The notes under the pieces: generated by a model | What the model saw: the letters and a program-made list of their open reading frames with translations, nothing else | What the model was told of the DNA's origin: nothing | Databases searched by the model: none | Made by a program: the position numbers and the translations under genes | Part shown: positions 46,967-51,983 of the stretch, piece by piece | Position numbering within the stretch: the first letter of the stretch is position 1 | Layout: every line of letters starts with the position of its first letter | From: Macromonas bipunctata | Lineage (GTDB): Bacteria; Pseudomonadota; Gammaproteobacteria; Burkholderiales; Burkholderiaceae_C | Length of the DNA stretch: 64,000 bases | Assembly (NCBI RefSeq): GCF_002837135.1 | Contig: NZ_NWBQ01000020.1 | Span: 1 to 64,000, forward strand | Direction: 5' to 3'

Positions 46967-47203
46967 TCAGGCTGTGAGCCAGCCCTGGATTTCGGCCTTG
47001 GTCGGGATGCGACCGCTGGCCACCACCTTGCCGTTGACCACCAGGCCGGGGGTGGACAACAGGTCGTATTCCAGGATCTGGCCCATGTCAGTGACTTTGA
47101 CGAACTCGGCGGTAATGCCCGCCTCGCTGGCGGCCTCGCGCGCCACGGCTTCGAGCTTCTTGCAGTTGGCACAGCCCGAGCCCAGAATCTTGACGGTCAA
47201 CAT
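46967..47203 (-). CDS. Small thioredoxin-like protein
   Basis: A 78-residue minimal thioredoxin-fold protein (redox-active disulfide protein 2 family). Cys11 and Cys14 form a CxxC motif (GCANCKKLE) directly after the first beta strand, and the cis-Pro motif STPGLVVNG is present. AAGGAG precedes the ATG at 47203. It is the last gene of the arsenic cluster, 39 bases after the DUF318 permease. Such proteins often accompany ArsP/DUF318 permeases; a role in delivering electrons or thiol-bound metalloid to the permease is inference. Confidence 0.85.
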   Translation of the reverse strand: MLTVKILGSGCANCKKLEAVAREAASEAGITAEFVKVTDMGQILEYDLLSTPGLVVNGKVVASGRIPTKAEIQGWLTA

Positions 47204-47242: not shown

Positions 47243-48676
47243 CTACGCGCGGCGGCGCGGCACACGCTGGAGCAGCAGCGCGAACACCGCCGCCACCGCA
47301 CCCAGCCCTGCGGCCAGCCGCCAGGCGGCCACGCCATCGGCCCAGGCGCCGTACGTCAGGCCCGAAATCACGCTGAACACAGCGACCAGCCCGACGTAGG
47401 TGAACGTCTTTTTGCGGCCGATGACGGATATCACCATCAGCATGCTTTGCAGGCTCAGCTCGGGGTCGGCCATCAGGTAGGCCAGCAGCGGGCCGGGGTG
47501 CATGCCCAGGTCGAGGAACATCCGGGCCACCGGCACTTCCACCAGCGTCGGGAAGTACATGAACACGCCAAAGAACACCGCCACCACGTTGGCCGCCAGG
47601 GTGTTGGTGCCCGCCAGGGTCTCTATCCATTCGGAGCGGATGAGCTGGCGCACCACGCCCACGATGAACACGCCCACCACCAGCAGGGCAAAGATCTGCT
47701 TGACGAAGCGCCAGGCCTCCCACAACCAAGCCTGGCGCTCGTCGGCGTCCAGCCGCATCGCATAACGCCACACGGCCCACAGGCACACTGCCACGCCCAG
47801 GAAGCGCCCGGTGATGGCCAGCGCCAGCCCCTCGGTGTTGGGCGTCAGGCGCAGGGCGGCCACCAGCAAGGTGGCAGCGGCCAGGCCCAGCGTGGCAACC
47901 GTCCAGCGGTTGGCGCCTTCCACGATGTTTTCCAGCCCCTTCCAGGCGGTGGTGGCAATGGCCAGCAGCAGCACAATCAGGACCGAGCCCTGGAACGTCA
48001 CGCCCTCCTCGCCCTTGGCGGCGTCGTACGGTACCCAGCCAAACAGGGTGTCTTGCCAGGCCTGCGCCCAACCCATGGGCAGTTGCACGGTAGCCACGGT
48101 GGCGGTCAGAGGCCAGAGCTTGAGCGTGCCGGCCACCAGCAGCGCCACCATCGACAGCAGCAGGCCGGTGGCCGCCGGCGCGATGCGGGCCTGCTGCGCA
48201 AACAGGGTGTCGGTCTGGGCGTCGTGGCTGGCGTCGTCCTTCCAAAAGAACAGTGCCATCAACAAGCCGATGCCGATGCCAAACAACAGACATAGCAGCA
48301 CCCGCGCCAGCGCAAATTCCGGCCCCAGAATGCTGCCGGTGTAGGCCAGCGCCATGATGTTGCCCGCGGGCGCAAAGAACAGGAACGTGATAGCTGGCCC
48401 AATGCCCGCACCCTTGCGGTAGATGCCCGCAAACAGCGGCACGATGGTGCAGGAACACACCGCCAGCAGTGAGCCCGCCAGCGCTGCCGCCGGGTACGAA
48501 ATGTGCGCCGGGGTGCTGCGCCCCAGCCAGCGCGTGATGCTGGCCTTGGGAATCAGCGCCGCCATGGCACCGGCAATAAAGAATGCGGGCACCAGGCACA
48601 GCAACACATGCGCCGCCAGATAAGCGGCCAGATTGCCCGCGCCGCCGCCGAGCAAATGCAGAAAATAGTCCATCAT
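47243..48676 (-). CDS. ArsP/DUF318-family permease
   Basis: A 477-residue integral membrane protein of the permease family that includes the organoarsenical exporter ArsP. About ten hydrophobic segments are visible. The diagnostic early motif CSCTIVPLFAGIYRKGAG has a Cys-Ser-Cys and is followed by FLFFAPAGNIMAL; a second similar half contains FGVFMYFPTLVEVPV. The ATG at 48676 overlaps the stop of the small upstream ORF (ATGA); the adjacent ATG at 48673 has slightly better spacing to AAGGA. Substrate is inferred from its place in the ars operon. Confidence 0.8.
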   Translation of the reverse strand: MMDYFLHLLGGGAGNLAAYLAAHVLLCLVPAFFIAGAMAALIPKASITRWLGRSTPAHISYPAAALAGSLLAVCSCTIVPLFAGIYRKGAGIGPAITFLFFAPAGNIMALAYTGSILGPEFALARVLLCLLFGIGIGLLMALFFWKDDASHDAQTDTLFAQQARIAPAATGLLLSMVALLVAGTLKLWPLTATVATVQLPMGWAQAWQDTLFGWVPYDAAKGEEGVTFQGSVLIVLLLAIATTAWKGLENIVEGANRWTVATLGLAAATLLVAALRLTPNTEGLALAITGRFLGVAVCLWAVWRYAMRLDADERQAWLWEAWRFVKQIFALLVVGVFIVGVVRQLIRSEWIETLAGTNTLAANVVAVFFGVFMYFPTLVEVPVARMFLDLGMHPGPLLAYLMADPELSLQSMLMVISVIGRKKTFTYVGLVAVFSVISGLTYGAWADGVAAWRLAAGLGAVAAVFALLLQRVPRRRA

Positions 48677-48840
48677 CCCGTCCTTGCCAAGTTGTGGTGG
48701 TGCTGCGTGCGCCGGGCCCGCCATTTGCGGCCTTCGCTGTAGCACAGCACCGCGCTGGCGGCGGCCAAACATTGCAGGCGCTGCGCCACCACCGGCCCGG
48801 CCTGTTGTGAAGGATCCGGGGCGGGGGTGTCGGTGCTCAT
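48673..48840 (-). CDS. Unknown 55-residue ORF in ars operon
   Basis: A small open frame filling the gap between the arsC-arsH fusion and the permease. It begins with ATG at 48840 and its TGA overlaps the permease ATG. The predicted product is Pro/Asp-rich at the N-terminus, has two Cys (24 and 33) in an Ala-rich middle, and a basic, His-rich C-terminus (three consecutive His at 47-49). No strong ribosome site is visible. I do not recognise a family. The exact overlap with the permease start supports translation, but it could be a chance frame. Confidence 0.4.
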   Translation of the reverse strand: MSTDTPAPDPSQQAGPVVAQRLQCLAAASAVLCYSEGRKWRARRTQHHHNLARTG

Positions 48841-48864: not shown

Positions 48865-50013
48865 TCAGAGGGCGGCCTGGTTCACCCGCTTCATCAGCTC
48901 CTCGGCGCTTTCCTTGCGCTCGCTGTAGCGGTCCACCAAATAAGGCGCCACATCGCGCGTGAGCAGCGTGAACTTGACCAGTTCCTCCAGCACGTCCACG
49001 ATGCGGTCGTAGTAGCCCGAGGGCTTCATGCGGTCGTTGTCATCGAATTCCAGGAACGCCTTGGCCACCGAGGACTGGTTGGGGATGGTCAGCATGCGCA
49101 TCCAGCGGCCCAGAATCCGCATCTGGTTGACGGCATTGAAGGATTGCGAACCGCCGCAGACCTGCATCACCGCCAGCGTCTTGCCTTGGGTGGGGCGGAT
49201 GGCCCCTTGCGACAAGGGCAGCCAGTCGATTTGCGTCTTCATGATGCCGGTCATGGCGCCGTGGCGCTCGGGCGAACACCACACCATGCCCTCGCACCAG
49301 CGCGTGAGCTCGCGCAGCTCCTGCACCTTGGGGTGCGTGTCGGGCGCGTCGTCCACCAGCGGCAGGCCGGTCGGGTTGAACACCTGGACTTCAGCACCCA
49401 TGGCCTGCAACAACCGGGCCGATTCCTCCACCACCAGGCGGCTGAAGGAGCGCGCCCGCAACGAGCCGTACAGCAGCAGGATGCGCGGCGGGTGGCTGGA
49501 GCGCAACGGTGCCTGCAACTGGGTCAGGTCGGGCAGGCGGAAGTGCTCGGGCACCAAGGCGGGCAAGCTCTCCAGTGCCGCCGCCAGGGCTTGAGCAGGC
49601 CCGGTCGACCACGCTGGCACCACTTCGCCATCCTCCTTGGTGAAGGGGCCGATGTGCGGATTGGGCAAAATCTCCAGCACACGCTCGGACGGACGGCACA
49701 GGCGCACACCCAGCGGTGTCACCACAATCGGGCGGTTGAGCAGGATGGGGTGCTGGCCGATGAAGTCCAACAGCTGCTCGTCGCTCCACTTGGGGTTGCC
49801 CAGGTCGAGTTCGTCGTACGGCGTGCCTTTCTGGCGCAGTACGGCACGCACGCCCACGCCCATGGCGCGCAGCAAGGCCTGGAGCTCGGTGCGGTTGGGT
49901 GGCGTGACGAGGTAATCCACCACGTGCGGTTCGACGCCACTTTGACGAACCATGGCCAGCGTGTTGCGCGAGGTACCGCACTTGGGGTTGTGGTAAATGG
50001 TGATAGAAGTCAT
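48865..50013 (-). CDS. Fused arsenate reductase ArsC - ArsH
   Basis: A single 382-residue chain with two arsenic-resistance enzymes. Residues 1-~142 are a glutaredoxin-dependent ArsC of the R773 type: catalytic Cys12 (NPKCGTSRN) and Arg60, Arg94 and Arg107 all fall at the R773 positions. Residues ~155-382 are a complete ArsH NADPH-FMN reductase: FMN loop [10 protein letters not shown] at 183-192, [18 protein letters not shown] at 247-264, [14 protein letters not shown] at 286-299 and the YSERKES end. The linker is short. ArsC reduces arsenate to arsenite; ArsH oxidises trivalent organoarsenicals in studied bacteria. It starts 7 bases after acr3. Confidence 0.92.
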
Positions 50014-50020
50014 GTTTTGC

Positions 50021-51037
50021 TCATTTCAAGGTTGCAGGCCGCCAAGCATTCACCATCGCCACCAGCGACAGCATCACCGGCACTTCGACCAGCACACCGA
50101 CCACCGTGGCCAGCGCCGCGCCCGAGTTCAAGCCAAAGAGGGAAATTGCCACCGCCACCGCCAGCTCAAAGAAGTTCGAGGTGCCAATCAGGCACGCCGG
50201 GCCCGCAATGTCGTGCGGCAGCTTGAGCCACTTGGCGGCCCACCAGCTGATGAAGAAAATGCCGTACGTCTGCAACACCAGCGGTACCGCAATCAGGCCA
50301 ATCACGGTGGGTTGCGCGATGATGGTCTGGGCCTGAAAGCCAAACAGCAGCACCACGGTCGCAATCAGACCCACAATCGACCACGGCTTGAGCTGGGCCA
50401 CGAAATTGCCCACCGCGTGCACCGAGCGCCGGGCCAGCAGGTGGCGTGTGGCCATCCCCGCCGCCAGTGGCAACACCACGTACAGCACGGTGGACAACAT
50501 CAAAGTCTCCCACGGCACGGTCACATCCGTCACACCCAGCAAGAAGGCGGCAATCGGCGCAAACGCCACCACCATCACCAAGTCGTTGATGGACACCTGC
50601 ACCAGCGTGTAGTTGGCATCGCCTTTGACGAGCTGGCTCCAGACGAACACCATGGCCGTACACGGTGCCACGCCCAGCAAAATCATGCCCGCGATGTACT
50701 CGCTGGCCGATTGCGGGTCGACCCACGGCGCAAACAGGTGCTGGAAGAACAGCACACCCAATGCCGCCATGGTGAAGGGCTTGATGAGCCAGTTCACCAC
50801 CAGCGTCAGCAACAGGCCTTGGGGCTTCTTGCCCACGTCTTTCACCGCCGACCAGTCGATCTGAATCATCATCGGGTAAATCATCACCCAGATGAAGACC
50901 GCCACCACCAGGTTGACCTGGGCGTATTCAAGGAACGCGACCAGCTGGAACACCGACGGCAGCCACAGCCCCAGGCCCACCCCCGCCGCAATGCCCAGCG
51001 CGACCCAGACGGTCAGGAACCGTTCAAAGATACCCAT
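50021..51037 (-). CDS. acr3: Arsenite efflux transporter Acr3
   Basis: Inner-membrane arsenite exporter of the ACR3/BART superfamily. The 338-residue protein has about ten membrane helices. The essential Cys of the family lies in [10 protein letters not shown] (Cys126), and acidic residues in late helices (Glu291, Glu318) match the conserved Glu of Acr3. ATG at 51037 starts 5 bases after the preceding arsC stop, behind AAGG; the TTG at 51046 is rejected. It exports the arsenite made by the two arsenate reductases in the operon. Confidence 0.94.
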
Positions 51038-51042
51038 GACCT

Positions 51043-51546
51043 TCAACCCTGGGTGCCAATCTGGTGCAACTCGGCTTGCAGCGACAACTGGCTGAGCTTG
51101 GCCACCGGCAGGTTCACGAACAGGCTGATGCGGCGGTGCAAGAGCCGGAACGCTTCGGCAAAGGCTTGCTGCTGCGCCTCGGCGCTGCTAGTGACGCTGG
51201 CCGGGTCGGGCACGCCCCAGTGGGCCGACATGGGTTGTCCGGGCCACAGGGGGCAGGTTTCGGCTTGGGCGTTGTCGCACACCGTCAGCACAAAGTCCAT
51301 CTGGGGCGCGCCGGGCGTGGCGAACTCGTCCCAGCTCTTGCTGCGCAGGCCTTCGGTGCCAAAGGCGTTGCGCTTGAGCATCTCGAGCGCCTGCGGATGC
51401 ACCTGTCCGGCAGGCTGGCTGCCGGCGCTGAACGCGCGGTACTTGCCCGCACCAAGCTGGTTGAGCATGGCCTCGGCCATGATGCTGCGCGCCGAATTGC
51501 CGGTACACAGAAACAGGACGTTGAAAACAGGGGTGATGTTGTTCAT
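51043..51546 (-). CDS. arsC: Arsenate reductase, low-molecular-weight phosphatase type
   Basis: Reduces arsenate to arsenite through a phosphatase-like P-loop and a cysteine relay. The 167-residue protein has the CX5R loop with Cys14 and Arg20 (LCTGNSAR), candidate relay cysteines Cys90 and Cys98, and the general-acid Asp in VPDPA near 114. This class is mechanistically unrelated to the R773-type ArsC in the fusion gene two positions downstream. ATG at 51546; 29 bases after arsR. Confidence 0.93.
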
Positions 51547-51575: not shown

Positions 51576-51929
51576 TCAACACAAGGGGACGTCACCAGCG
51601 GCAGGCCCGCTGGTGCAGGTGACGGCGGTGGCATCCAGGCACGGCTGGCCCTGGCAGCAGTTGGCGGTCAGGAAGGCCAGCAGCTCATTCATGGTGTCGA
51701 TGCGGGCCCGGTAGATCAAGTGGCGGCCCTCGCGCTCAAAGGCCACCAGCCCGGCGCGGGTGAGCTCCTTGAGGTGGAACGAGACCACGCTGCCACCAGC
51801 GTCCACCACCTCGGCCAGGCGGCCCGGCGTCATGCCCGCTGGCCCGGCCACCACCAGCGCCCGGAACAGGCGCAGGCGCGTCTCCTGGGCCAGGGCGCCC
51901 AGCGCCAGCACGGCGTCGGGTTCACGCAT
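51576..51929 (-). CDS. arsR: ArsR/SmtB-family arsenite-responsive repressor
   Basis: Winged-helix repressor that leaves DNA when arsenite binds. The 117-residue protein has the recognition helix region GGSVVSFHLKELTRAGLV at about 45-62 and a GRHLIYRA wing. Metalloid-binding cysteines are at the C-terminus, Cys91, Cys92 and Cys97 (NCCQGQPC), resembling the C-terminal site of Acidithiobacillus ArsR rather than the CVC site of R773. I chose ATG at 51929; an upstream ATG at 51968 would add a non-conserved basic segment. It is the first gene of the operon and presumably autoregulates. Confidence 0.92.
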   Translation of the reverse strand: MREPDAVLALGALAQETRLRLFRALVVAGPAGMTPGRLAEVVDAGGSVVSFHLKELTRAGLVAFEREGRHLIYRARIDTMNELLAFLTANCCQGQPCLDATAVTCTSGPAAGDVPLC

Positions 51930-51983
51930 ACGGATGCACCTGCAAGGTGGAAGGCGGTGCAGCGGCAAGGTGTGGCATAAAAC

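Follow-up and report, generated by a model that had tools for sequence, protein, structure and literature searches.

The window, a 64,000-nucleotide stretch of Macromonas bipunctata DNA, carries an ars operon whose genes lie on one strand in the order arsR, LMWP-type arsC, acr3, arsC-arsH, ArsP_1 permease and ArsE-like thioredoxin. The genes and the parts of the fused gene are as follows.

51576..51968, minus: arsR repressor (NF033788, 58 bits, cut-off 55)
51043..51546, minus: LMWP-type arsC, of a second arsenate reductase family (PF01451, 66.7 bits, cut-off 23.2)
50021..51046, minus: acr3 arsenite efflux permease (TIGR00832, 407 bits, cut-off 283)
48865..50013, minus: arsC-arsH fusion gene, 382 aa (single open frame, Pfam and NCBIfam matches)
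49618..50013, minus: ArsC half, residues 1-132, glutaredoxin-type arsenate reductase (TIGR00014, structural superposition, C12/R60/R94/R107 kept)
49621..49623, minus: candidate internal GTG start, codon 131, in frame with ArsH, 8 nt after AAGGAGG
49498..49617, minus: linker and ArsH N-terminal tail, residues 133-172 (weak pLDDT, low identity to Malikia)
48868..49497, minus: ArsH half, residues 173-382, NADPH-FMN flavoprotein (TIGR02690, PDB match 2q62)
47243..48772, minus: ArsP_1-type permease (PF03773, 217.8 bits, above the cut-off of 32.3)
46967..47203, minus: ArsE-like small thioredoxin, 78 aa (TIGR00412, 97 bits, cut-off 62)

The fusion gene starts 7 nt past acr3. The LMWP-type arsC scores below the cut-offs of TIGR02691 and TIGR02689, and the permease below those of NF033936 (Cu/Zn efflux) and NF040736; an organoarsenical substrate for the latter protein is putative. 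The ArsE-like thioredoxin directly follows the permease, an order also seen in Malikia granosa (L035), where the whole ars gene order, with ORFs read by eye, matches that of the window. The arrangement arsR-arsC-acr3-arsC-arsH is described as one of five main ars forms in Burkholderiales in the available text of PMC3954881; the gene order is alike, and the last arsC and arsH are a single gene here. The genome encodes a glutathione synthetase and has two strong matches to glutaredoxin, and the fusion is its sole ArsH match. Nothing in the genome exceeded the cut-off of NF008823, which we take to be the ArsM model (best score 46 against 263 bits).

Two complete enzymes in one reading frame

The gene is an ATG-started frame of 382 codons with no internal stop, at the coordinates given in the earlier note, which had left the minus strand unstated. 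Both domains asked for in that note were found in the one frame. Residues 6-114 match Pfam ArsC (PF03960, 76 bits, cut-off 24) and residues 175-318 match Pfam FMN_red (PF03358, 115 bits, cut-off 24). The NCBIfam models of glutaredoxin-type ArsC (TIGR00014, 138.3 bits) and of ArsH (TIGR02690, 403.8 bits) both score above their curated cut-offs of 106.05 and 292.25, the ArsH model beginning at residue 150. The description of a complete ArsC and a complete ArsH in one chain thus holds.

Cys12, Arg60, Arg94 and Arg107, which we take to have the catalytic roles in glutaredoxin-type ArsC, are all present in the ArsC half. Residues 1-132 of the E. coli ArsC structures 1jzw and 1i9d, presumably of the R773 enzyme, align to residues 1-132 of the fusion, in keeping with the R773 positions previously claimed for the four residues. 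PDB titles name C12S and R60 mutants of ArsC. In the alignment, the four residues are kept in 9/9 fused rows, the present gene among them, and in 72, 72, 72 and 71 of 72 separate rows, the single miss being a gap. The modelled ArsC half superposes on 1s3d and 1i9d over 130 columns with an rmsd of 1.0 and 62% identity. It has the full domain and the four residues of the stand-alone enzyme (TIGR00014; 1i9d, 1jzw), from which the fusion differs in continuing C-terminally into ArsH. The second half is likewise a full ArsH domain with the GSLRxRSxS flavin motif (TIGR02690; 2q62, 7ple, 2fzv), its best PDB match being 2q62 at 75% identity; stand-alone ArsH differs in having no ArsC and linker in front. 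The FMN phosphate motif of ArsH, GSXRXXS (PMC9137774, in the text available), is found as GSLRARSFS at residues 183-191. PDB matches to BURRH were taken as chance.

In the predicted monomer (pTM 0.52), two parts are for the most part modelled with confidence, and the linker between them is weak. Mean pLDDT is 59-65 in the linker blocks from 131 to 160 and 79 in 161-170; within the ArsH half, 274-300 and 364-368 are poor stretches, with pLDDT below 50. The linker is probably flexible, judging from the model, and since this is a model of the monomer only, with no ArsH interface, no domain arrangement is to be read from it.

Distribution and origin of the fusion

A full-length, stop-free match to the fusion, 78-79% identical to the present one, was found in four of five genomes of a genus that we infer to be Malikia, and the fifth had no match to the fusion. 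These stop-free matches in four other genomes rule out an assembly or frameshift error; the four represent one clade and are not independent evidence, and the genus of the window is itself represented by one genome. The fusion of two complete enzymes is genuine.

Separate genes are the normal state, as the earlier note had supposed. In a sample of the window's own family, 243 of 399 genomes match at 1e-20 and, among the matches listed, there are five full fusions, namely the present genome and the four of Malikia. In the class sample 8 of 369 genomes match at 1e-100, and in the phylum sample, searched with a profile of ten fusions, 90 of 398 match at 1e-90; in each the present genome is the only fused one among the matches listed. 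Family f172 gave 186 matches at 1e-60 in 275 genomes and no fusion among those listed; it holds no row near-identical to the Psychrobacter query, seems not to be Moraxellaceae and serves as a denominator only. The genome samples overlap partly, and the counts refer to listed matches in E-value order. Long frames around ArsH or ArsC in 12 stretches of family genomes contained ArsH only (10) or ArsC only (2) and never both; by eye, their upstream parts appear to be wrong-frame readings.

A contig scan of 578 relatives returned at least 80 loci, 5/80 of them fused: one in Malikia granosa, three in Psychrobacter and one in an 'Alcaligenaceae' MAG, where the fusion sits on a 6.3-kb contig. The first 113 loci comprise 11 fused rows, 9 of them distinct, 49 with arsC and arsH adjacent but unfused, and 53, mostly with ArsH alone, that have no neighbouring pair at 1e-15. 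In plasmids, 202 records cover at least 80% of the query, and the best 60 of these include one one-piece fusion, a 376-aa protein of Asticcacaulis excentricus pASTEX02 (L166, 5001-6131). The gene table of this plasmid, known to be incomplete, shows a shortened arsH only, the ArsC part being missing. The fusions in Psychrobacter, the MAG and the Asticcacaulis plasmid rule out confinement to the present genome and its near kin. The ArsC-ArsH fusion is thus rare yet present in several lineages, which answers the question of spread left open earlier.

Some apparent fusions were rejected. At L034, L037 and L041 the alignment spans both parts, and in each the arsC frame stops before ArsH. In the genome G781, from the f172 sample, both parts are also spanned (L124, C14 35372-36532), but one TGA lies inside; arsC and arsH there share a frame with this single stop between them, one step from a fusion. 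Two further observations concern individual loci. In the Psychrobacter immobilis fusion (L040), the ArsC half is without two residues near position 65, the catalytic residues being kept. On pASTEX02, a 308-aa frame (L166, 6142-7068) joins an LMWP-type ArsC to ArsN2, and the table gives arsN2 only.

The unfused pairs indicate how such a gene could arise. Of 72 distinct pairs of adjacent but unfused genes, which come from loci fetched for likeness to fusions and are not a random sample, 68 have an ATG, GTG or TTG in frame with arsH within the final 30 nt of arsC. From this possible start, arsH would overlap arsC by 8 nt in 37 pairs, by 4 nt in 15 and by 11-23 nt in 16; the remaining four share a frame with a stop between. 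Pairs such as that of Acidovorax sp. MR-S7 (L044) encode the same proteins as the fusion in two frames with overlapping stop and start. With a possible arsH start inside the end of arsC, a small frame change joins the two genes. Malikia fusions keep an IDADGRRV-type arsC tail with the ArsH N-terminus directly after it. The gap measures 54 or 66 nt in these genes, while the nearest unfused rows have 55 nt and certain other unfused rows 67 nt. These gaps are consistent with a one-base frame change at the origin. The gap of the present gene is also 54, but the arsC tail is no longer recognisable, and the one-base history is therefore read from Malikia and not from the present gene.

A tree of the concatenated halves was built from 68 rows, 10 of them fused, after 14 rows of f172 had been dropped by hand. 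The present fusion and those of Malikia form one clade (99/86) and those of Psychrobacter another (100/96), and the neighbours of Asticcacaulis are three alphaproteobacterial rows and two from the class of the window. The fused or separate label needs four changes on this tree, three of them forced by starred branches; a previous tree, made without Asticcacaulis from 81 rows of which 9 were fused, needed three, two of them forced. At least three separate origins of the fusion would be the simplest reading, though the changes may be gains or losses. Forcing all fusions into a single clade was rejected, at a cost of 265 log units (p-AU 4.1e-55). A group of the L036 fusion with Psychrobacter was not rejected (AU test, p 0.43); the groups for both AU tests were picked after the tree was seen.

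Constraint on the halves and an unfused ArsC copy

Comparison of the present gene with Malikia in four pairs gave dN/dS values of 0.24-0.29 for ArsC and 0.12-0.16 for ArsH. Purifying selection acts on both halves. In the linker, identity is 30-40%, against 75-89% for the halves, and dS, at 1.2-2.1, is near saturation.

A partial duplicate of the ars cluster lies on contig C33 of the same genome (L002, 192-1908). It holds acr3, a 141-aa ArsC that stands alone, and an LMWP ArsC without its middle, as read by eye, and no ArsH match was found in it. A further ArsR-like frame follows the copy (L002, 2577-2972). The main block shared with the fusion cluster comprises 1501 aligned bases at 94% identity, and the stand-alone ArsC is 96% identical to the ArsC half over residues 1-132. 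Between these two, dN is 0.019 and dS 0.298; since the ArsC dS between the present gene and Malikia is 0.60-0.73, the copy looks younger than the Malikia split, unless gene conversion mimics youth. ArsC is constrained with or without ArsH attached. Given the single clade formed by the present fusion and those of Malikia, the C33 copy would more simply have lost its ArsH, the alternative being an unfused ancestor.

Function of the joined enzymes

We consider it likely that this is a two-domain protein in which each half does the job of its stand-alone relative and the linker is a mere tether. It would have arisen in an ordinary ars operon of Burkholderiales when arsC and arsH, two overlapping genes, came into one frame. 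The ArsC half would reduce arsenate with glutathione and glutaredoxin, Acr3 exporting the product, and the ArsH half would act as an NADPH:FMN oxidoreductase on organoarsenicals or in redox stress. The linker would only tether the halves, in a fixed 1:1 ratio. This ordinary reading is enough because the genome encodes both glutaredoxins and a glutathione synthetase, has no ArsH match besides the fusion and gives no ArsM match above the cut-off. ArsH forms tetramers (PMC9137774, available text), and an assembly of the fusion would therefore carry four ArsC units. That the two halves are active, that they assemble in this way, how the fusion came about and that no electrons pass from one half to the other are what we infer for this protein. 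Recurrence in separate lineages could mean that tethering is favoured, in which case our reading of the linker as a tether and no more may understate its role.

The direction of the ArsH reaction is disputed. Work cited in the text available from PMC6205960 has ArsH as an oxidase of trivalent organoarsenicals, and PMC9137774, in its corresponding passages, as an organoarsenate reductase and redox-stress enzyme. The portions available of PMC9144182 report higher resistance to several oxyanions from cloned ArsH; one results sentence contradicts the arsenate claim. Of the proposal that the fusion ties an arsenate reductase to an organoarsenical oxidase, the tie fits, and the oxidase role shares in this dispute.

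A selectable gain from proximity, through hand-over of an arsenical or through ArsH quenching oxidants near ArsC, appears unlikely, although it is the best placed of the alternatives. Arsenite, the product of ArsC, is not known to be a substrate of ArsH without methylation, and the host genome has no ArsM match over the cut-off. The linker is poorly kept between the present gene and Malikia, and one base suffices to fuse overlapping genes. Fusions are, moreover, rare (5/399, 1/369, 0/275 and 1/398 genomes among the matches listed, the present genome being in each non-zero count). Coupling would agree with the occurrence of fusions in several separate lineages, with the constraint on both halves and with the fusion of ArsC to several other ars proteins (PMC6205960, available text). 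ArsH may also bear on arsenate itself: in the available text of PMC5930303 the products of arsH1-acr3-2-arsH2 of Halomonas GFAJ-1 are called sufficient, the context being arsenate resistance without a working ArsC.

It is slightly less probable again that the gene effectively yields two proteins, the fusion and a free ArsH made from an internal start, or a chain cut at the linker. The GTG at codon 131 recurs 8 nt after AAGGAGG in one Malikia gene (L005), and two others (L007, L008) have GTG at codon 132, 11 nt after the same motif, so that such a site is present in 4/5 of the present and Malikia genes. The fifth (L006) is without it, its only candidate being GTG160 with no AAGGAGG-like motif, and start codons in two Psychrobacter fusions (L038, L039) also lack such a motif. 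Because AAGGAGG and GTG encode conserved ArsC residues (KEDGEVV), the internal site may be incidental.

A self-contained reductase, in which electrons pass from NADPH to the FMN of the ArsH half and on to the ArsC half, directly or via ArsH cysteines, bypassing glutaredoxin, is very improbable. The probably flexible stretch of low model confidence between the halves would be compatible with it. So would Cys240, Cys246 and Cys286 in the ArsH halves of the present and Malikia proteins, Cys286 mapping to a loop over the presumed flavin site (loop as in the available text of PMC9137774). All three cysteines are missing, however, in the Psychrobacter and L036 fusions. The Asticcacaulis fusion, outside the 9-row count, has cysteine at the 246 place only, and unfused rows have it at the 240, 246 and 286 places in 6, 34 and 17 of 72. 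No ArsH cysteine is common to the nine fusions compared, which speaks against a thiol relay in ArsH. Glutaredoxins and glutathione synthetase are encoded in the genome, and on C33 an ArsC with 96% identity occurs unfused. The earlier suggestion of NADPH/FMN supply to ArsC without glutaredoxin thus found no support, and the extension of it to the recurrent fusions, as flavin-driven arsenate reductases needing NADPH only and no glutaredoxin, we regard as the least credible of all.

Fusion of ArsC to other ars proteins is already known. ArsR-ArsC, Acr3-ArsC, aquaglyceroporin-ArsC and ArsN-ArsC fusions are named in the text available from PMC6205960, where the view is reported that ArsC seems 'predestined' for fusion. 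In these, as here, an arsenate reductase is joined to a protein of the ars operon; the partner here is a flavoprotein enzyme, ArsH. To the prospect that the present fusion was already well characterised, the answer was that the portions of the open-access literature searched name no ArsC-ArsH fusion, and ArsH as partner is new relative to those texts.

The Asticcacaulis gene, tabulated as a shortened arsH, suggests that fusions of this kind can go unseen in gene tables. The fusion is a natural construct with which the role of ArsH, as oxidase, reductase or redox guard, could be settled beside an enzyme of known direction. The recurrence of the ArsC-ArsH fusion suggests that both enzymes serve the same task.
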